Source of the DNA: a virus
Reading direction: 5' to 3' (one strand)
Virus record (IMG/VR): IMGVR_UViG_3300049212_000062
Location: 1-64,000 of that record
Length of the DNA: 64,000 nt
Part shown: in pieces, positions 30,327 through 38,258 of the stretch
Layout: each line of letters opens with the position of its first letter
How positions within the stretch are numbered: position 1 is the first letter of the stretch
The notes under the pieces: model-generated
What the model was told of the DNA's origin: nothing
Databases searched by the model: none
What the model saw: the letters and a program-made list of their open reading frames with translations, nothing else
Program-made: the position numbers and the translations under genes

Positions 30327-30393
30327 TGCGTCATGGGTTGCAGCACGGTGCTGCGGTCCACAGAGTGGCAACTCAACAGTTAGGAGCACCAAC

Positions 30394-31062
30394 ATGACCC
30401 CCTTCACGTTCAAGGCCCAAGCCAAGTCCAACGCCAAGCGCTTCTTGGTGCAGACCTGCAAGCTGGAGAACTTCGAAGACTACCTGACCCAAGACGGCGA
30501 CGGCCAGTGGGGAACCTACATGCGTGACGGCGCCCCGGTGCCGCATGCCACGGTGCGCGGCGAGATGGAGGCCAAGGTCGCGGCCCTGGCCGCAGAGGTC
30601 GCCAGCATTGCACCGGCCCCCGCTGCACCCGTGCCCGCACCGGCCCCGGCTTCGCTGGAAGAAGAGGTCGCGCTGATCGCCGGCAACGACACGGCAGCCG
30701 CTGCCTTCGGCGCCCTGGCGTTCGGCCAGCTCACCGCCAGCACCAACACCACGCCGGCCCCCGTGGCAGGCACCACCGCACCCCGCAGCGCGGCCCGCGA
30801 AGGCGCCACGCCCACCAGCGGGCTGAAGATCCAGCGCGACCGCCCGGAACAGAACGGCATCCGTCGCCAAAGCGCCGGCAGCGTCGGCGACAAGCTGTGG
30901 GCGCTGTACGACAAGATCGGTCCGACCTGCACGCTGGAGCAAGCCAAGCAAGCCGCCACCGACGCGGGCCTGTCGACCACCAGCGCGGCGATCGCCCTGT
31001 ACAACTGGCGCAAGTTCAACGGCATCGCCTCCGGCCGCACCGCCACGCCGGCAGCCGAGTAA
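30394..31062 (+). CDS. Predicted DNA-binding protein with WRKFNG domain
   Basis: 222 residues from ATG 30394 with AGGAG upstream. The N-terminus (MTPFTFKAQAKSNAKRFLVQ) is followed by an Ala/Pro-rich linker. The last about 80 residues contain PEQNGIRRQ, DKLWALYDKIG and ALYNWRKFNGI, shared with the 31643 protein and, in short form, with the 16219 protein. The repeated domain looks like a small winged helix. It is probably abundant (own promoter, strong ribosome site) and could organise DNA or regulate transcription. Confidence 0.65.
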   Translation: MTPFTFKAQAKSNAKRFLVQTCKLENFEDYLTQDGDGQWGTYMRDGAPVPHATVRGEMEAKVAALAAEVASIAPAPAAPVPAPAPASLEEEVALIAGNDTAAAAFGALAFGQLTASTNTTPAPVAGTTAPRSAAREGATPTSGLKIQRDRPEQNGIRRQSAGSVGDKLWALYDKIGPTCTLEQAKQAATDAGLSTTSAAIALYNWRKFNGIASGRTATPAAE

Positions 31063-31066
31063 CGCC

Positions 31067-31555
31067 ATGGGCTACGTCAAATGCGTAGCCTGCCCTTGCT
31101 CTGCGCAGTGCGACGAGGAAGGGCAGTGCGTCAATACCTGGGTGACCGCCCAGGACCGGCGGGGCACGTGCGTTCGGAGTACCCTGCCGCCCGGCCACTA
31201 CACGGCAACCATTGCGGCAGTCGATGCGCAAGGGCGCGCGGTGCTGGCGGTGAACACACCGAACGGCGTGGTTAACCTGCCAACCACAATCGCCTCGCCA
31301 AAGCCCGCAAAAGCCCCGCCAAGCGCACCGCGCCCGCCGGGTGGGGGTAGCGTGACAGAGCAGATCTTTGCAGCCTGCGACGCGGTGCTGGCGGAGATGT
31401 ACCCGGAACCCACGCCACTGGACACGGCGCCGGGTGTGAAAGAGCAACGTCTGGCCGCTGCCCGCAAGGTGGCGATACCACGCCTGGAAGCGGCTGGTGT
31501 GAACATCAACAGCGCTCGCAAGGGTTCGAGCATGTGGATTGCCTGCCGTCGCTGA
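31067..31555 (+). CDS. Unknown 162-residue protein with N-terminal Cys cluster
   Basis: Starts four bases after the previous stop. Cysteines at the N-terminus (KCVACPCSAQCDEEGQC) could hold a zinc or iron-sulphur centre. A small beta segment follows (HYTATIAAVDAQGRAVLAV), then a proline linker, then a helical C-terminus. No family recognised. Confidence 0.6.
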   Translation: MGYVKCVACPCSAQCDEEGQCVNTWVTAQDRRGTCVRSTLPPGHYTATIAAVDAQGRAVLAVNTPNGVVNLPTTIASPKPAKAPPSAPRPPGGGSVTEQIFAACDAVLAEMYPEPTPLDTAPGVKEQRLAAARKVAIPRLEAAGVNINSARKGSSMWIACRR

Positions 31556-31556
31556 T

Positions 31557-31585
31557 TTGTGCTCAAACCCGCTCCCTGCTACATT
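31557..31585 (+). promoter_or_regulatory. Sigma70-type promoter with extended -10
   Basis: TTGTGC (31557-31562), 17-base spacer, TGC-TACATT (-10 at 31580-31585). Sixteen bases around the -10 (CCCTGCTACATTGCCA) are identical to the minus strand just upstream of the major capsid gene. Confidence 0.75.
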
Positions 31586-31642
31586 GCCATCACGTCCGCC
31601 GGACGCCCCATTGTCAACCGACCAACCACCAGGAGTCACCAC

Positions 31643-32218
31643 ATGACCGAGAAGACTGCAGAGCAACTGGCGGCCGAAGCCGCCGCGCAAGCGAAGGCCG
31701 CTGCCGAAGCCAAGGCCGCCGAAAAGGCTGCCGCCAAGGCGAAGAAGGACCAAGAGAAGGCCGACGCCAAGGCCAAGCGCGAGGCCGACGCGGCTGCCAA
31801 GAAGGCCGCCAAGGAAGCCGAGGCGCAGGCCAAGAAGGACAAGGCCGCTGCCGAGAAGGCCGCCAAGGAAAAGGCTGTCGCCGACGCCAAGGCCGCCAAG
31901 GAAGCCGCCAAGATGCCGGAACAGAACGGCGTGCGCCGGCCGGGCCCCGATGGCAAGTGCGGCAAGGCGTGGGCGCTGATGGACGAAATGTCCCGCAAGC
32001 TGGGCGCCCCCGTGGCGATCGCCGACCTGCTGTTGGCCTCCAAGGCCGCCGGCATGAACGACAACATGGTCCGCAGCAATTATGCCGCGTGGCGCAAGTT
32101 CAACGGCGTGACCGGCCAAGTGCTGTCCCAGGCTGCCATCGCCAAGGCGCAGGCCACCGCAGCCGCTGCCGCACAGGCCGCGCAAGCCGCAGCGAACGCC
32201 GGCAAGCCGGCCGCCTGA
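31643..32218 (+). CDS. Ala/Lys/Glu-rich coiled-coil protein with WRKFNG domain
   Basis: 191 residues with AGGAG before ATG 31643. Residues 5-90 are almost entirely Ala, Lys, Glu and Asp, a long single alpha-helix or coiled coil. Then come PEQNGVRRPG, KAWALMDEMS and YAAWRKFNGV, homologous to the end of the 30394 protein, and an Ala-rich tail. The plan recalls KfrA- or histone-like proteins. A DNA-bridging or nucleoid-type role is inferred. Confidence 0.65.
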   Translation: MTEKTAEQLAAEAAAQAKAAAEAKAAEKAAAKAKKDQEKADAKAKREADAAAKKAAKEAEAQAKKDKAAAEKAAKEKAVADAKAAKEAAKMPEQNGVRRPGPDGKCGKAWALMDEMSRKLGAPVAIADLLLASKAAGMNDNMVRSNYAAWRKFNGVTGQVLSQAAIAKAQATAAAAAQAAQAAANAGKPAA

Positions 32219-32220
32219 GC

Positions 32221-32248
32221 TTTGATGTACCGCAGCGCGTCGTAAACT
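32221..32248 (+). promoter_or_regulatory. Probable promoter of the deazaguanine operon
   Basis: TTTGAT (32221-32226), 16-base spacer, TAAACT (32243-32248), about 62 bases before queE. It fits sigma70 less well than the neighbouring promoters but lies in the only gap before the operon. Confidence 0.5.
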
Positions 32249-32267
32249 AACGGCGCGCCGGAAACCC

Positions 32268-32291
32268 GCAGCCCGCCTTCGCGCGGGCTGC
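32268..32291 (+). promoter_or_regulatory. Leader hairpin upstream of queE
   Basis: Perfect 9-bp stem GCAGCCCGC/GCGGGCTGC with a six-base loop, followed by TCTCTCCCC, between the putative promoter and the queE start. It may be a terminator of the preceding gene or an attenuator in the operon leader. I do not see a preQ1 riboswitch pattern. Confidence 0.55.
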
Positions 32292-32310
32292 TCTCTCCCC
32301 GAGGTACACT

Positions 32311-33039
32311 TTGAAGCTCAACATCCAGCCCATTGAGAAACTGGACCGCCGTGACGACGACAGCGTCGACGTACACGAGATCTTCGGCCCAACCATCCAA
32401 GGCGAAGGCCCCCTAAGCGGCCACCCCGCCATCTTCGTTCGCCTTGCCGGCTGCAACTTGCAGTGCCCCGGCTGCGACACCGACTACACCAGCAAGCGCA
32501 CGCGCATGACGCCGGAAGGCGTTGTCGCCGAAGTCATGCGCATTCACCAAGGCCCGCGCCTTGTGGTGATCACCGGCGGCGAACCGTTTCGCCAGAACAT
32601 CGGCCTGCTCACGCAGTTGCTTGAAGACGCCGGCTACCAGATCCAAATCGAGACGAATGGTGTGCTGCCCGTGCCCGACGGGCTGGCGGCCAGCACCGTC
32701 ATCGTCTGCAGCCCCAAGACCTTCCGCGTGCACCCCAGCGTCGTTGACCGTGCGTGGGCGTGGAAGTACGTGCTTGACCACAGGCACGTCGACCCAGACG
32801 ACGGGCTGCCGACCTTCGCGCTGTACAACGAGACGCAGGGCCGCGTCGCACGCCCGCCCAGTGACTTCTTCACCGTCCCTGGCCTCATTGGCGCCGTGTA
32901 CGTGCAGCCCATGGACGAGGGCACCGGCTACGCGATCGGCGCGCACAACCACCAGAACCAGAAGGCCGCGCTGGCGACCTGCCTGAAGTACGGGTACACC
33001 TTCCAACTCCAACTTCACAAAACCGTGGGGCTCCTCTGA
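32311..33039 (+). CDS. queE: 7-carboxy-7-deazaguanine synthase (radical SAM)
   Basis: 242 residues from a TTG at 32311 with GAGG upstream. Cys48, Cys52 and Cys55 form the radical-SAM CxxxCxxC cluster (AGCNLQCPGCD), preceded by GPTIQGEGPLSGHPAIFVRL, the QueE hallmark, and followed by ITGGEP (SAM-binding GGE). It rearranges 6-carboxytetrahydropterin (from QueD) to 7-carboxy-7-deazaguanine. First gene of the modification operon; its TGA overlaps the queD ATG. Confidence 0.95.
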   Translation: MKLNIQPIEKLDRRDDDSVDVHEIFGPTIQGEGPLSGHPAIFVRLAGCNLQCPGCDTDYTSKRTRMTPEGVVAEVMRIHQGPRLVVITGGEPFRQNIGLLTQLLEDAGYQIQIETNGVLPVPDGLAASTVIVCSPKTFRVHPSVVDRAWAWKYVLDHRHVDPDDGLPTFALYNETQGRVARPPSDFFTVPGLIGAVYVQPMDEGTGYAIGAHNHQNQKAALATCLKYGYTFQLQLHKTVGLL

Positions 33040-33482
33040 TGTACTACTCGACAAAGACATACGGGCACGACATCGGCCTGTCGGCCTGCTTCCGCCAGCA
33101 CAAGGCGCAGAGCCACTGCCGGCACTTGCACGGCTACGCCCTGGCCGTGCACGTTGAGTTCCGCGCCAGCGAACTGGACGTGCGGAACTGGGTGGTTGAC
33201 TTCGGCAGCCTGAAGAGCTTCAAGGGCATGCTGGAAAACACCTTCGACCACAAGCTACTCGTCGCCGAGGACGACCCGTGGAAGGACGAGCTGTGCGCGC
33301 TGTCGGGTTACGACGTGGCGAACATTGTTATCGTGCAGGCCACGGGCTGCGAAGCCTTCGCCAAGCTGATCTTCGAATACACCCAGCTCTGGCTCAAAGA
33401 CAACGGCTACGCGCAGCGCGTGCAGGTGAGCAAGGTGGAAGTCCGTGAGCACGGTGCCAACAGCGCCATCTACTCGGAGTAA
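33039..33482 (+). CDS. queD: 6-carboxytetrahydropterin synthase
   Basis: 147 residues of the PTPS/QueD family. SHCRHLHGYALAVHVEF supplies the catalytic Cys27 and zinc-ligand His29/His31. VVDFGSLK and FDHKLL are the usual following motifs, and VSKVEVREHGANSA is the C-terminal substrate-pocket segment. It converts dihydroneopterin triphosphate (from FolE) to 6-carboxytetrahydropterin. It overlaps queE by one base (TGATG) and sits four bases before folE. Confidence 0.94.
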   Translation: MYYSTKTYGHDIGLSACFRQHKAQSHCRHLHGYALAVHVEFRASELDVRNWVVDFGSLKSFKGMLENTFDHKLLVAEDDPWKDELCALSGYDVANIVIVQATGCEAFAKLIFEYTQLWLKDNGYAQRVQVSKVEVREHGANSAIYSE

Positions 33483-33485
33483 GGC

Positions 33486-34142
33486 ATGAGCCAACTGTTC
33501 AAGTCCATGCAGCAAATGGCCGACGCACACGAAGCCATGAACAAAGAGCAGAGCACCGTCCCGGTTGTTGACTACGGCCGTGACACGCAGCGCGTGCGCC
33601 CCGAGGAGCTGTTTCGGGGCCTGCTGCACATGCTGGACCCGCAGCCCGGCCGCGAAGGGCTGGGCGACACGCCGGCCCGTGTGGTCAAGGCGTGGCGGCA
33701 CTGGTGCGGCGGCTACGCGATGGACCCGGCTGACATACTGAAGGTGTTCGAAGATGGTGCGCAGAGCTACGACGAAATGGTCTTGGTCAAGGACATCCCC
33801 ATCTACAGCAAGTGCGAGCACCACTTGGCTGACATCTTCGGCACGGCAAGCATCGCCTACATCCCCAACGGCAAAATCGTCGGGCTCAGCAAACTCAGCC
33901 GACTGGCCGATTGCTTTGCCCGCCGTCTCCAAGTCCAAGAGCGGCTGACGGTACAAATCGCCGACGCGCTGGTGGAGCACTTGCAACCCAAAGGCGTCGG
34001 CGTGATCGTACGTGCGCGGCATATGTGCATGGAGTCCCGTGGCATCAAGCAGCAGGGTCACCACACGCAGACACAAGCGCTGCGCGGCTGCATCAAAGAC
34101 GACCCGCGCAGTCGCGCCGAGTTCTTCGCCGCCGTGGCGTAA
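33486..34142 (+). CDS. folE: GTP cyclohydrolase I
   Basis: 218 residues. KCEHHL near 109-114 and HMCMESRGIKQQG near 180 carry the zinc Cys/His ligands of FolE; GLSKLSRLADCFARRLQVQE is the conserved central helix. It turns GTP into dihydroneopterin triphosphate, the first step of both folate and deazaguanine synthesis. Within this operon it feeds QueD. Full length for the family. Confidence 0.95.
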   Translation: MSQLFKSMQQMADAHEAMNKEQSTVPVVDYGRDTQRVRPEELFRGLLHMLDPQPGREGLGDTPARVVKAWRHWCGGYAMDPADILKVFEDGAQSYDEMVLVKDIPIYSKCEHHLADIFGTASIAYIPNGKIVGLSKLSRLADCFARRLQVQERLTVQIADALVEHLQPKGVGVIVRARHMCMESRGIKQQGHHTQTQALRGCIKDDPRSRAEFFAAVA

Positions 34143-34264
34143 GCTACGGCCTACAGCGCGCCGGCCGCCGGCAGGCTACCCCAGCACCAGCGCACCCGGC
34201 CGCACGCGCTGGCGGCCCGCGCAGCCCCGTTCCCGGGGCATATCTACCCAAGGAGCACACCCGT

Positions 34265-34987
34265 ATGAGCAAGGTATTGTTGAGCAGTGGCGGCATGGAT
34301 AGTTTTCTGCTTGCCATGGAGCCCGAAGTGCGCGGCGCCAAGCATGTCTTCGTTGACATCGGCCAAGCCTACGTCGACAAAGAGCTGCGCAGCGCGGCCA
34401 ACGTGGCAGAGGCTGCCGGCGCCGAGCTGATCTACATGAGCGGCGCACGCTTTGCCCAGTATGAGCACAAGCCGACCGGCATCATCCCGTTCCGCAACGC
34501 GGAGCTCCTGCTGTGCGCGGCCCAGCACGGCGACACCATTTACTTCGGCGTCATCGGCGACGAAGTCAACAGCGACAAGTCGCCGCAGTTCGTTGCCGCT
34601 ATGGAAGGTGTGTTGCGCATCAGCCACCGTAAACAATACTGGACGTTCGGACGTGACTTCGACATCCTTACGCCATTCCGAGGCCTAAGCAAGACCGAGC
34701 TTGTCAAGCGCTACCTGGAGCGCGGCGGCGACCTGCACAAGCTGACGCAGACGGTGAGCTGCTACGACGGCGGCGACATGCACTGTGGTCAGTGCAGTAG
34801 CTGCTTCAAGCGCTGGGTTGCCCTGACCACAGCCACCGGCCAGGACGCGGCCAGCCTGCACCCGTGGGTCAAGCACCCGGGTTACTGGCACACGCGCGAA
34901 TACTGGGCAGAGAAGCTGGACCAGCCCGATTACCAACGGCGCCGCTACACGGAAACGATGCAGGCCCTGGACATCGCGCGGCTATGA
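34265..34987 (+). CDS. queC: 7-cyano-7-deazaguanine synthase
   Basis: 240 residues from ATG 34265 with AAGGAG upstream, after a 122-bp gap. It has a PP-loop (LLSSGGMDS, residues 5-13) and a C-terminal zinc cluster (SCYDGGDMHCGQCSSCFKR, about 163-181) as in QueC. It converts 7-carboxy-7-deazaguanine to preQ0 in two ATP-dependent steps through the 7-amido intermediate. Its stop overlaps the dpdA start. Confidence 0.93.
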   Translation: MSKVLLSSGGMDSFLLAMEPEVRGAKHVFVDIGQAYVDKELRSAANVAEAAGAELIYMSGARFAQYEHKPTGIIPFRNAELLLCAAQHGDTIYFGVIGDEVNSDKSPQFVAAMEGVLRISHRKQYWTFGRDFDILTPFRGLSKTELVKRYLERGGDLHKLTQTVSCYDGGDMHCGQCSSCFKRWVALTTATGQDAASLHPWVKHPGYWHTREYWAEKLDQPDYQRRRYTETMQALDIARL

Positions 34988-35916
34988 ACCTCTTCCTTGC
35001 GGCCGTCTACACCAATCAATACAGGTGGGGGCAAAAGCAGTACCCCCACTTCAACGACCGCGAGCGGCAGGTTGTCGACAACATCCCGCACATCCTGGAG
35101 TCATACCACTACGTCGGTAAGCAGCGGTATGTGGACGAGATGCGCGCCAGCGGCGCTAAGGTGTTCTTGGACTCTGGCGCGTTCTCGGCGAAGAGCCTCG
35201 GCATTGACATCAGCGTGGACGAATACTGCGAATACATCCACCGCAACCGTGACATCATTCGGGTAGAGGACGGTGTGCTAATGGCGTCTGTGCTTGACGG
35301 CATTGGCGACCCGCTGCTTACGTACCAGAACCAGATCTACATGGAGCGTAAGGGGGCCAAGCCGCTCCCCTGCTTCCACTTTGGCGAGGACGAGCGTTAC
35401 CTTGAGTGGTACGTTGCGAACTACGAATACATCACGATCGGCGGCATGGTGCGCACAAGCGCCGAAGACGTCATGCAGTGGCTCGACCGCGTGTGGGACC
35501 GCTACATGCTGGACGGGGCCGGGCGCCCGAAGCTCAAGGTGCACGCCTTCGGCGTCACCACCATCTCGCTCATGGAGCGCTACCCGTGGCACAGCGTTGA
35601 CAGCTCCTCGTGGATCCAGGCCGCCAGCTTCGGCAGCATCTACACCGTCGAACACGGGCCCATTGCCATCTCAGAGAAGAGCCCAAGCCGGCACGACATG
35701 GGCCGGCACCTGTCGACGCTCACCGCACCGGAGCGAGAGCAGGTCGAGCGAGAACTGATGCAGGAGGGCTTCGAACACGAGCGTCTTGCGTCGGTGTACC
35801 AAAGCCGCGCCGCGTTCAACATGCTTGGATACATGAAGCTCAACGTCGAGCTGAACAATCACTTCGCCGCCTGCAATGGCGTGCTAGACTGCCACAAGGT
35901 CCAACAACTCTTTTGA
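34984..35916 (+). CDS. dpdA: DNA-guanine transglycosylase (DpdA-type)
   Basis: 310 residues from ATG 34984, translationally coupled to queC. It is a TGT-like barrel: FLDSGAFSAKSLG with Asp63 in the base-pocket position, PCFHFGEDERYLEW, ITIGGMV (equivalent to the TGT glycine loop) and HAFGVTT..RYPWHSVDSSSW with Asp206 as candidate nucleophile. Phage DpdA enzymes exchange guanine in DNA for preQ0 or a derivative. With a full preQ0 pathway beside it, 7-deazaguanine modification of phage DNA is strongly implied. Confidence 0.9.
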   Translation: MNLFLAAVYTNQYRWGQKQYPHFNDRERQVVDNIPHILESYHYVGKQRYVDEMRASGAKVFLDSGAFSAKSLGIDISVDEYCEYIHRNRDIIRVEDGVLMASVLDGIGDPLLTYQNQIYMERKGAKPLPCFHFGEDERYLEWYVANYEYITIGGMVRTSAEDVMQWLDRVWDRYMLDGAGRPKLKVHAFGVTTISLMERYPWHSVDSSSWIQAASFGSIYTVEHGPIAISEKSPSRHDMGRHLSTLTAPEREQVERELMQEGFEHERLASVYQSRAAFNMLGYMKLNVELNNHFAACNGVLDCHKVQQLF

Positions 35917-35922
35917 GGTCTC

Positions 35923-36234
35923 ATGAAATACGTTGTTCTGCGCGTGCGCAAACCCGGCGAAGACAGCGCAATGGAGTTCCCGATTGCCTTCCCGGAGCAT
36001 CTGGTGCACAGCTTCGCCGCCGCACAACTCACCGCAATGCTGCGCATGCAGTACCCGAAGCACACCGAGGTGACGTGCACGGCTGCCGGTATGTTCAGCT
36101 CTATGGTGTTTGCCGGCATGGAGCCGAACGGGAAGTCTGATTCGCTGGGCGGCATTGCCAACCGCGGCGACCAAGACATGCGGTTGTTCATGATGAACAA
36201 CTACGGCGCGATGCACGTGGACGTCGAGCCGTGA
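35923..36234 (+). CDS. Unknown protein in the deazaguanine cassette
   Basis: 103 residues between dpdA and the second queC-like gene, overlapping the latter by 4 bp. A beta-start (KYVVLRVRKPGED), a helix (HLVHSFAAAQLTAML) and a loop-rich end (PNGKSDSLGGIANRGDQDMR). No catalytic motif or known family. Its position suggests a part in making, delivering or further altering the modified base, or in protecting the host from it. Confidence 0.65.
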   Translation: MKYVVLRVRKPGEDSAMEFPIAFPEHLVHSFAAAQLTAMLRMQYPKHTEVTCTAAGMFSSMVFAGMEPNGKSDSLGGIANRGDQDMRLFMMNNYGAMHVDVEP

Positions 36235-36866
36235 AAGTCGTAGTGCTGTGGAGCGGTGGCGTCGAGAGCACGTCGCTGCTGCTGTGGGCCTTGCAGCAGC
36301 CCGACACAGAGGTGCACGCGCACTTCGTTGAACTGCAGAACCAGGAGCGCCGGCACCTGTGCGAGCGGCGTGCGGTGAACCGCCTGCGGCGCCTGCTGCC
36401 TGCCAACCTTGTGGTTACCCGCTCCGCCATCACGATCATGGAAGGGCAGGCTACGGCTATCGACGCCGAAGTGCTGTACCCGATCGGCCGCGTGGTTGCC
36501 CGGCACGTTGGCGCGGAGCGGGTGCTGCGTGGCTGGTGTGCAGAGGACGAGTGGCACCGGGGCTCGGGTGCACCGCCGATGAAATGGCGCGGCCCGTGCA
36601 CACGGTTCGAAACCATCGCACGGCGGGTGCTTGGTGACGAGGCCGAGACGCTTACACCGTGGCTGCCCGAGCTGTACACCAAGGCGAAGGCATGGCACTG
36701 GGCCAACCTGGGCGAACTGGCGCAGCACACCTGGAGCTGTCGCCGGCCAGTCAACGACGAGCCCTGCGGCCTGTGCCATGCTTGCACAGAGCGCGTGCTG
36801 GCTGCCAAGGGGCAGAGCGCGCTGGTGTTCCCTGCGTTGCCACCTACTTCACCACATGCTCGCTGA
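36231..36866 (+). CDS. Second QueC-like PP-loop enzyme
   Basis: 211 residues from a GTG overlapping the previous stop. PP-loop VVLWSGGVESTSLLL (residues 4-18) and a C-terminal zinc-type cluster, TWSCRRPVNDEPCGLCHACT, place it in the QueC family. It is divergent from the operon's own QueC and has no fused glutaminase domain as in Gat-QueC. QueC chemistry passes through 7-amido-7-deazaguanine, so a paralogue could yield an amide or another adenylation-driven derivative. Its product is unknown. Confidence 0.82.
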   Translation: MKVVVLWSGGVESTSLLLWALQQPDTEVHAHFVELQNQERRHLCERRAVNRLRRLLPANLVVTRSAITIMEGQATAIDAEVLYPIGRVVARHVGAERVLRGWCAEDEWHRGSGAPPMKWRGPCTRFETIARRVLGDEAETLTPWLPELYTKAKAWHWANLGELAQHTWSCRRPVNDEPCGLCHACTERVLAAKGQSALVFPALPPTSPHAR

Positions 36867-37809
36867 CCTCAAGTTCGTGCAGGGCGCCGTCGCCAAGAAA
36901 GACTTCCTGCCGGCGCTCACCCACTTCTGCATCGAGAACGGCACGGTGCGGGGCTATAACGGCACCATCGCGCTATGCAGCCCCATCCCGTTCGACATTG
37001 CCTGCAAGCCCAAGGCGGAGACGCTGGTGCGTGCAATCGGCAACTGCGCCGACACGGTGCAGTTGAGCCTCACGCCCGCCGGCAGACTCAGCGTGAAGAG
37101 CGGCAGCTTTAAGACGTTCATCGACTGCGTTGACGGCGAGACGCCGCATTTGTTGCCAACGGGGCAGCGGGTGGAGGTGAACGGGGTTGCGCTGCTGGCC
37201 GGGCTCAAGGCCGTGCAGGCATTCATCGGCGAGGACGCTAGCCGGGCGTGGTGCAATGGCGTGCTGCTAAAGGGCGGCAGCATGTTCGCCACCAACAACG
37301 TGACGCTAGTAGAGTTCTGGGCCGGTAGCACGCTGCCCATTGTTGCCAACCTCCCGCGCACCGCAGTACGCGAGCTGATCCGTATCGGCGAGCCGCCATC
37401 GCATGCGCAGTACGACGAGACAAGCGTCACCTTCCACTACGAGGGCCGCCGCTGGCTGCGCACGCAGTTGCTGCCGGCAGACTGGCCGGACCTGAGCCGC
37501 GTGCTGGACCAGCCTTGCACACCGCAGCCCGTCGACAGCCGTATCTTCGAGGCCCTTGAAGTCATCAAGCCGTTCGCCGACAAGCTGGGCCGGGTGCTGT
37601 TCCAGGGTGGCAGCATGTGCACGCACGAGGCCGAGGGTGAGGGCGCGAGCTACGCTGTGGACGGGCTGGCAGTGGACGGGGTGTACAACATCGAGATGCT
37701 GGAACTGCTGCAAGGCGTGGCCGTGCAGGTTGACTTCACCACATACCCGAAGCCGTGCTTGTTCTTTGGTGAGAACATTCGCGGCGCAATCATTGGGATG
37801 CGCAAGTGA
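36856..37809 (+). CDS. DNA polymerase sliding clamp (beta-clamp-like)
   Basis: 317 residues from ATG 36856, overlapping the QueC-like gene. It has the beta-clamp pattern: KDFLPALTHFCIENGTVRGYNG at the start, LLAGLKAVQAFIGEDASRAW with GVLLKGGSMFATNNVTLVEF (DnaN-like LLxGxxxxATxxxxLV), and WLRTQLLPADWPDLSRVL. It would tether the phage polymerase encoded two genes on. It is slightly shorter than bacterial DnaN (about 366). Confidence 0.8.
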   Translation: MLADLKFVQGAVAKKDFLPALTHFCIENGTVRGYNGTIALCSPIPFDIACKPKAETLVRAIGNCADTVQLSLTPAGRLSVKSGSFKTFIDCVDGETPHLLPTGQRVEVNGVALLAGLKAVQAFIGEDASRAWCNGVLLKGGSMFATNNVTLVEFWAGSTLPIVANLPRTAVRELIRIGEPPSHAQYDETSVTFHYEGRRWLRTQLLPADWPDLSRVLDQPCTPQPVDSRIFEALEVIKPFADKLGRVLFQGGSMCTHEAEGEGASYAVDGLAVDGVYNIEMLELLQGVAVQVDFTTYPKPCLFFGENIRGAIIGMRK

Positions 37810-38258
37810 GAGCTGACTTCGTGGCTGCGGGGTTCGCGTACAGCATTGTCACAGGCAGGCTATATCGAGATGGCGTGCCCTGTTACTCGCTCGATAAACA
37901 CGGTTATCGAATTGTTAGTTTCAACGGTAGAAGTTATCGGCAACACCGTGTTGCGTGGTTGCTTGTGACCGGCGAATGGCCAGCGTTCGAAATAGACCAC
38001 GAAGACCGGCGTCCGTGGAACAATAGCTGGCACAACCTGCGCGAAGCAACACACCCGCAAAACGCCCAGAATCGCGTTGCACACCGCAATAGCAAGAGCG
38101 GTGTCCGCGGTGTTCGTTGGCGCGAGAAAGACAAACTCTGGGAACCACGCATAATGAAGGACGGGCGTCCTGTGAACCTAGGCCTTTACGCCTGTCTGCT
38201 AGACGCTGTAGCCGCACGCAAACGCGCCGAAAGGACGCTCTTCACTCATGCGAGCTGA
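37806..38258 (+). CDS. HNH homing endonuclease with AP2 domain
   Basis: 150 residues from a GTG overlapping the clamp stop. HRVAWLLVTGEWPAFEIDHE and NNSWHNLREATHPQNAQNR (about 47-90) are the HNH nuclease core; SGVRGVRWREKDKLWEPRI (98-116) begins an AP2-type DNA-binding domain. Such free-standing endonucleases spread by cutting unoccupied alleles. The gene is visibly less GC-rich than its neighbours and is wedged between clamp and polymerase, with the 8-base word GAGCTGAC at both edges. It looks like an insertion. Confidence 0.9.
   Translation: MRADFVAAGFAYSIVTGRLYRDGVPCYSLDKHGYRIVSFNGRSYRQHRVAWLLVTGEWPAFEIDHEDRRPWNNSWHNLREATHPQNAQNRVAHRNSKSGVRGVRWREKDKLWEPRIMKDGRPVNLGLYACLLDAVAARKRAERTLFTHAS

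Follow-up and report, generated by a model that had tools for sequence, protein, structure and literature searches.

A phage gene cassette for probable 7-deazaguanine DNA modification, with a non-canonical QueC-family protein in the putative QueC role

The window analysed here, 64,000 nucleotides in all, comprises positions 1-64000 of a 64,033-bp IMG/VR virus record from an uncultured phage. Its + strand carries a replication module (primase, MazG, thymidylate synthase, ligase, Sak4, SSB, Cas4 exonuclease, helicase, clamp and DNA polymerase), and between the helicase and the clamp lie, in this order, queE, queD, folE, queC and dpdA, spanning 32311-35916 (Table 1). An earlier note on this DNA had named these five pathway genes; their coordinates, order and strand proved right, and their families were matched by PHROG, Pfam and TIGRFAM-type identifiers. 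The same note described the genes as contiguous with start-stop overlaps, which is true of queE/queD (1 bp) and of the queC gene, here termed queC1, with dpdA (4 bp), whereas queD and folE are separated by 3 bp, and folE and queC1 by 122 bp. Downstream of dpdA, a gene for a 103-aa protein follows after 6 bp and overlaps by 4 bp a second queC-like gene (queC2), which in turn overlaps the clamp gene by 11 bp. All five core reading frames are intact, and no sigma-70 promoter-like or terminator-like match was found within 32000-37000. The whole analysis was sequence-based, and several of the viral records used for comparison are fragments.

Table 1. Genes of the cassette and its downstream flank, with positions in the window
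Gene	Position	Strand	Assignment	Family or structure matches
queE	32311..33039	+	7-carboxy-7-deazaguanine synthase, radical SAM; TTG start	phrog_2076 1e-53; TIGR03365 2.6e-23
queD	33039..33482	+	6-carboxytetrahydropterin synthase	PF01242 5.8e-19; phrog_2389 6e-42
folE	33486..34142	+	GTP cyclohydrolase I	PF01227 9.7e-67; phrog_2197 8e-76; TIGR00063 above cut-off
queC1	34265..34987	+	DK-type QueC-family protein, 240 aa, NSDKS for YPDC	PF06508 4.8e-19; PDB top match Cap9
dpdA	34984..35916	+	DNA guanine transglycosylase	phrog_887 6e-81
103-aa gene	35923..36234	+	probably no pathway enzyme	phrog_3988 4.9e-12
queC2	36231..36866	+	second, eroded QueC-family protein	PF06508 2e-10; PDB QueC 2pg3 3.5e-8
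clamp	36856..37809	+	DNA polymerase processivity factor; flank gene fixing synteny	phrog_947 6.6e-74

The cassette is not a chance assembly, since related phages have the same genes, flanked by those for a Cas4 exonuclease and a helicase on one side and for a clamp and a DNA polymerase on the other. In particular, the Queuovirinae cassettes of CAjan (dPreQ0), 9g (dG+) and Pseudomonas phage MiCath share both the gene set and this position. They differ from the one in the window in that, here, no gene occupies the QueC slot between queE and queD, a QueC of the DK type (defined below) lies between folE and dpdA, and queC2 is an extra gene.

Two observations concern the flanks. An HNH endonuclease gene (37806-38258) is wedged between the clamp and polymerase genes, overlapping; its codon usage is strongly foreign (z -7.6), so it is likely a recent homing-endonuclease arrival. 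Just upstream of queE, a 'QNG[IV]RR' domain is repeated within 30388-32218 (at 31559-32218 and again near 30844-31026), and it likewise occurs twice upstream of the cassette in the closest uncultured relative, locus L003.

Alignment with the QueE proteins of 9g and CAjan showed the cluster motif CNLQCPGC and the GGEP motif to be conserved. DpdA is about 60-64% identical to the DpdAs of MiCath, PaMx25 and CAjan-group phages, and 76% identical to that of L003; by sequence, it has no meaningful match in the PDB. Its residues D63 and D206 lie in the motifs LDSGAFS and SVDSSSW, whose aspartates we regard as the catalytic pair of the TGT family. Both are invariant in an alignment of six sequences, and the two motifs are the same across the best 80 loci of the survey described below; loss of the catalytic aspartates, which the earlier note had raised as a ground for doubt, was therefore not seen. 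Arg157 was considered as a sign of altered base specificity and rejected, as it is also present in DpdAs that accompany a canonical QueC (L010, L013, L021 and L033). Nor is the loop after the GG motif peculiar to DpdAs with DK-type partners. As for QueD, the protein encoded here and the QueD of MiCath/Rhizobium-type phages have HGY where 9g and CAjan have HGH, and the AGH motif of the latter two is absent; the metal site may thus differ from that of the 9g and CAjan enzymes.

The protein in the QueC role, QueC1, belongs to PF06508 but is not a canonical QueC, a point that the earlier note had missed. Cap9 of type IV CBASS (9nto) is its best match among PDB sequences (E 3.7e-8), QueC itself being marginal (0.23), and the predicted structure (pLDDT 87.7) likewise ranks Cap9 first, with a TM score of 0.78 as against 0.74 for QueC (both by target length). 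In common with canonical QueC (PF06508 cluster 1), QueC1 has an SGGxDS P-loop (SGGMDS), a VPxRN-type loop (IIPFRN), a zinc motif with Cys-Tyr (SCYDGGDMHCGQCSSC; the spacing is x7, versus x8 in the canonical C(x)8CxxCxxC) and adjacency to queD, queE and folE. According to the motif table and the tree alignment, it retains the equivalents of R99, D133, K165, Y189 and the zinc cysteines. What it lacks, by comparison, is the YxQxHxxE motif, with Ile at the Y35 site and the Gln and Glu retained, and the YPDC motif, with NSDKS at the Y131 site and the Asp retained; it also has a C-terminal extension and an extra, invariant S-x-R-x-QYW motif, a candidate for taking the place of Tyr131. Eight close relatives all have NSDKS. 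The Y35A, R99A, Y131A and Y189A variants of E. coli QueC have no activity, and Y131F retains part of it (PMC13329287).

QueC1 also resembles Cap9 in its short motif 2-motif 3 region. Unlike Cap9, however, it adjoins dpdA, with folE and dpdA as its neighbours in all intact close-relative loci, it contains neither a Y/FxQ(x)5E nor a YxDC (Tyr-x-Asp-Cys) motif, and no CD-NTase gene is adjacent. Gat-QueC features are lacking as well: the protein has only 240 aa, and no GATase_6 match was found anywhere in the record. QueC1 instead falls into what we term the DK type, having D-K-S/T at the YPDC site and no Tyr at 35, and grouping with that branch in the tree. As the record holds neither a canonical QueC nor a Gat-QueC, but only two divergent PF06508 proteins, we filed the system as a variant.

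A search with an alignment of eight phage QueC1 proteins, which depends on short exact matches and so covers near relatives, recovered 43 viral loci of the DK type. A dpdA homologue was present in 42 of them, and the remaining one (L094) ends inside queC1. The site corresponding to YPDC reads D-K-S or D-K-T in most members, and DQ, DN or DKD/DKN in a few. Among genome contigs, a three-row alignment returned no loci and a wider one returned 11. Ten actinobacterial loci in bacterial genomes encode DK-type proteins, with QueD and QueE adjoining in eight within the stretch fetched. These proteins (from Streptosporangium, Streptomyces, Amycolatopsis and Micromonospora) share with QueC1 the D-K-S site, the C-terminal extension and the side of the tree; they differ in being only about 30% identical to it, in lacking dpdA at their loci and, in many cases, in having a SAGLDS P-loop and Cys-Ser/Met for Cys-Tyr. 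The tree places phage and actinobacterial DK-type proteins apart from canonical, Gat and Cap9-like ones with a support of 80/94, below the starred level, so the split is likely rather than firm. Within the phage collection, relatives of the L131 version occur in four records only (two faecal clones, Bacteroides phage BS162P1 and phage NCTB). To our knowledge, no member of the DK-type branch has been assayed, and we know of no product measured for any of them, nor of any base measured for the phages that carry them.

We also compared the occupants of the QueC slot in a survey of viral loci made with a DpdA alignment. Among the best 80 dpdA loci, which, given this selection and the need for short exact matches, are near relatives and do not represent all phages, 43 encode a Gat-QueC, 31 a canonical QueC and three a DK-type protein (L003 plus the near-identical L004 and L005), while three have none in the short stretch covered. 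Where the order is readable, canonical and Gat-QueC genes lie between queE and queD, and DK-type genes between folE and dpdA. Searches of the whole records behind L003, L005, L091-L093 and L095-L097 revealed no QueC-family protein besides the DK-type one; in these relatives, a protein of the QueC1 type must therefore do the QueC step, if the pathway works. At L091 and L093, the unit is reduced to queE-queD-folE-queC1-dpdA-clamp, with nothing intervening. The QueC slot was taken over by the DK-type branch while DpdA stayed near the partners of canonical QueC. In L091, L092 and L093, queC1 (48-56% identity) and the replication genes are as in the window, but DpdA is very different, implying that DpdA and QueC1 were each exchanged independently.

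The earlier note had also placed the two genes downstream of dpdA in the operon, outside the minimal set. One of them, queC2, does encode a second divergent PF06508 protein, but the 103-aa gene is probably a generic phage neighbour rather than a pathway enzyme: homologues of its product occur in 273 phage records, most of them from Pseudomonas phages, and the gene is present at three other dpdA loci that have no queC2. Roles as a new pathway enzyme or as a Cap9-like protein substrate were rejected: Pseudomonas phages commonly encode such homologues, and the N-terminus, MKYVV, does not contain the MG motif typical of known or proposed deazaguanylation substrates (PMC13279940).

QueC2 retains a P-loop (SGGVES) and the four zinc cysteines, and has lost almost every substrate residue, including the equivalents of Y35 (Leu), R99 (no RN loop), Y131 (no YPDC), D133 and Y189 (Arg). 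The gene was absent from every other dpdA locus surveyed and from 11 other whole records tested, and in relatives the interval between dpdA and the clamp is occupied by unrelated small genes. Its native codon usage (z -0.6) speaks against a fresh insertion, a reading that was rejected, and, together with the overlap with both neighbours, marks it as a settled gene. The predicted structure (mean pLDDT 51.9) was too poor for a fold search. Among viral contigs, no relatives emerged except one weak 43-codon segment. The protein does share WSGGV[DE]ST, EVH and ELxN motifs with the singleton QueC-like proteins of Ackermannviridae (EspM4VN type), at 27% identity, but the similarity is weak (E 6e-3, over residues 2-59) and long branches bar a placement in the tree. 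Two further matches, on short contigs labelled 'Escherichia phage' (OR844673.1 and OR845151.1), were discarded: they look like contamination by host queC, the query span and the 26.3% identity being those of E. coli queC.

From the gene content, order and motifs, we infer each catalytic step of the following route, its end product and its protective role. The operon would build a 7-deazaguanine base from GTP, to be inserted into phage DNA as protection against restriction. FolE would yield dihydroneopterin triphosphate, QueD carboxytetrahydropterin and QueE 7-carboxy-7-deazaguanine (CDG). QueC1 would use ATP to adenylate the CDG carboxyl, which would then be amidated, and would probably dehydrate the amide to preQ0; DpdA would then replace guanine in the DNA with preQ0, the most likely result being dPreQ0. 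QueC2 may be an accessory ATP-using enzyme that is dispensable in relatives.

That the phage DNA contains a 7-deazaguanine is the most likely reading of the locus, and to this extent gene content, synteny and the DpdA residues lend good support to the earlier claim of synthesis from GTP and exchange into DNA. The further part of that claim, preQ0, cannot be taken as established, since the QueC step would fall to a protein with no counterpart of Y35 or Y131, and E. coli QueC cannot do without either (PMC13329287); we consider the chances about even that the operon makes a preQ0-type base, present in the phage DNA as dPreQ0. The note's suspicion of a different end product, which it attributed to the extra genes, was reasonable, but the stronger reason for it is the main queC, not the 103-aa gene. 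In favor of dPreQ0, DpdA resembles the DpdAs that are paired with canonical QueC. dPreQ0 was measured in CAjan and Rosebush, which have the same minimal gene set, and both DpdA-dependent DNA modification and protection from restriction were demonstrated for CAjan (PMC6884629). Searches of the record found no gene for a glutamine amidotransferase, QueF or YhhQ, the lone QueF match being folE.

Rather less probable is that QueC1 stops at the amide or, in a Cap9-like manner, joins some other amine to CDG, so that DpdA would insert 7-amido-7-deazaguanine (dADG) or an N-substituted 7-carboxamide; to dADG or another C7 amide as the base we would allot about a quarter of our confidence. Such chemistry would suit a protein that has lost Y35 and Y131 while retaining the ATP site, the zinc site and the base-reading Asp, whose top PDB match by both sequence and fold is Cap9 and whose relatives sit in actinobacterial QueD/QueE clusters, some with a peptide synthetase. 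At position 131, the QueC of phage CP21, a relative of the Campylobacter phages CP220 and CPt10, has Phe. The DNA of CP220 and CPt10 contains dADG; Tyr is kept at this position by all the aligned QueCs of phages with a measured dPreQ0 (CAjan), dG+ (9g) or dPreQ1 (Dp-1 and HVTV-1) (PMC6884629, PMC8306585). The product of Cap9, the closest solved relative of QueC1, is an amide and not a nitrile (PMC13279940). Yet in Cap9 itself position 131 is Tyr and position 35 is Phe, so amide-only chemistry needs no loss of either residue. DpdA shows no change relative to preQ0-type partners, and the operon has no conserved gene for an amine donor or a substrate protein; at L091 and L093 it consists of the five genes and the clamp only.

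It is unlikely that QueC1 and QueC2 split the work, with one forming the amide and the other either the nitrile or some additional modification, to give a phage-specific base. The placement of queC2 within the operon, overlapping both neighbours, its native codon usage and the retained P-loop and zinc cysteines would agree with such a role, but L003 and L005 have the same QueC1 and DpdA without QueC2, five functional positions of QueC2 are lost, and unrelated small genes fill its site in relatives. Least likely of all is that the cassette has lost its function in DNA modification, with a broken QueC step or a pathway that feeds only host tRNA queuosine: although QueC1 is without the essential tyrosines and some phages have pathway genes without dpdA (PMC6884629), the five frames are intact, dpdA and queC1 overlap, the catalytic residues of DpdA are conserved, and an association with dpdA in nearly all viral loci of the branch is not expected of a dead gene.

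As far as its sequence tells, the cassette is of a known kind, and what sets it apart from known phage examples is a DK-type protein in the QueC role. QueC determines which 7-deazaguanine a phage can place in its own DNA, and dozens of uncultured viruses have a QueC branch that is linked to dpdA and lacks the two essential tyrosines. Either not every QueC needs these tyrosines, or modified phage DNA of one class has been overlooked. In the latter vein, we tentatively entertain the idea that the whole DK-type branch might use ATP to form the amide of CDG, or to ligate an amine to CDG, rather than act as a preQ0 synthase; the carrier phages would then have either dADG or an N-substituted 7-carboxamido-7-deazaguanine that is new to science, and in the present phage QueC2 may modify this base further.

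Other QueC-like genes came to light in the comparisons. A second phage type (Rhizobium phage type; L008 5676-6512, L013, L027 and similar loci) retains YPDC and has lost the zinc cysteines (TSYDG...VGHDHA), and may therefore be a zinc-free QueC. The actinobacterial DK-type clusters (L108-L112 and L114-L123, some on plasmids) encode QueD, QueE, sometimes FolE, a peptide synthetase, a phosphoribosyl- or deoxyribosyltransferase and sugar-phosphate enzymes, and possibly make uncharacterised 7-deazapurine natural products. On an Agrobacterium plasmid (L113 5001-5591), a short QueC-like gene lies among TIR-domain genes, an arrangement that resembles a defence operon of the kind known for Cap9 or QatC.
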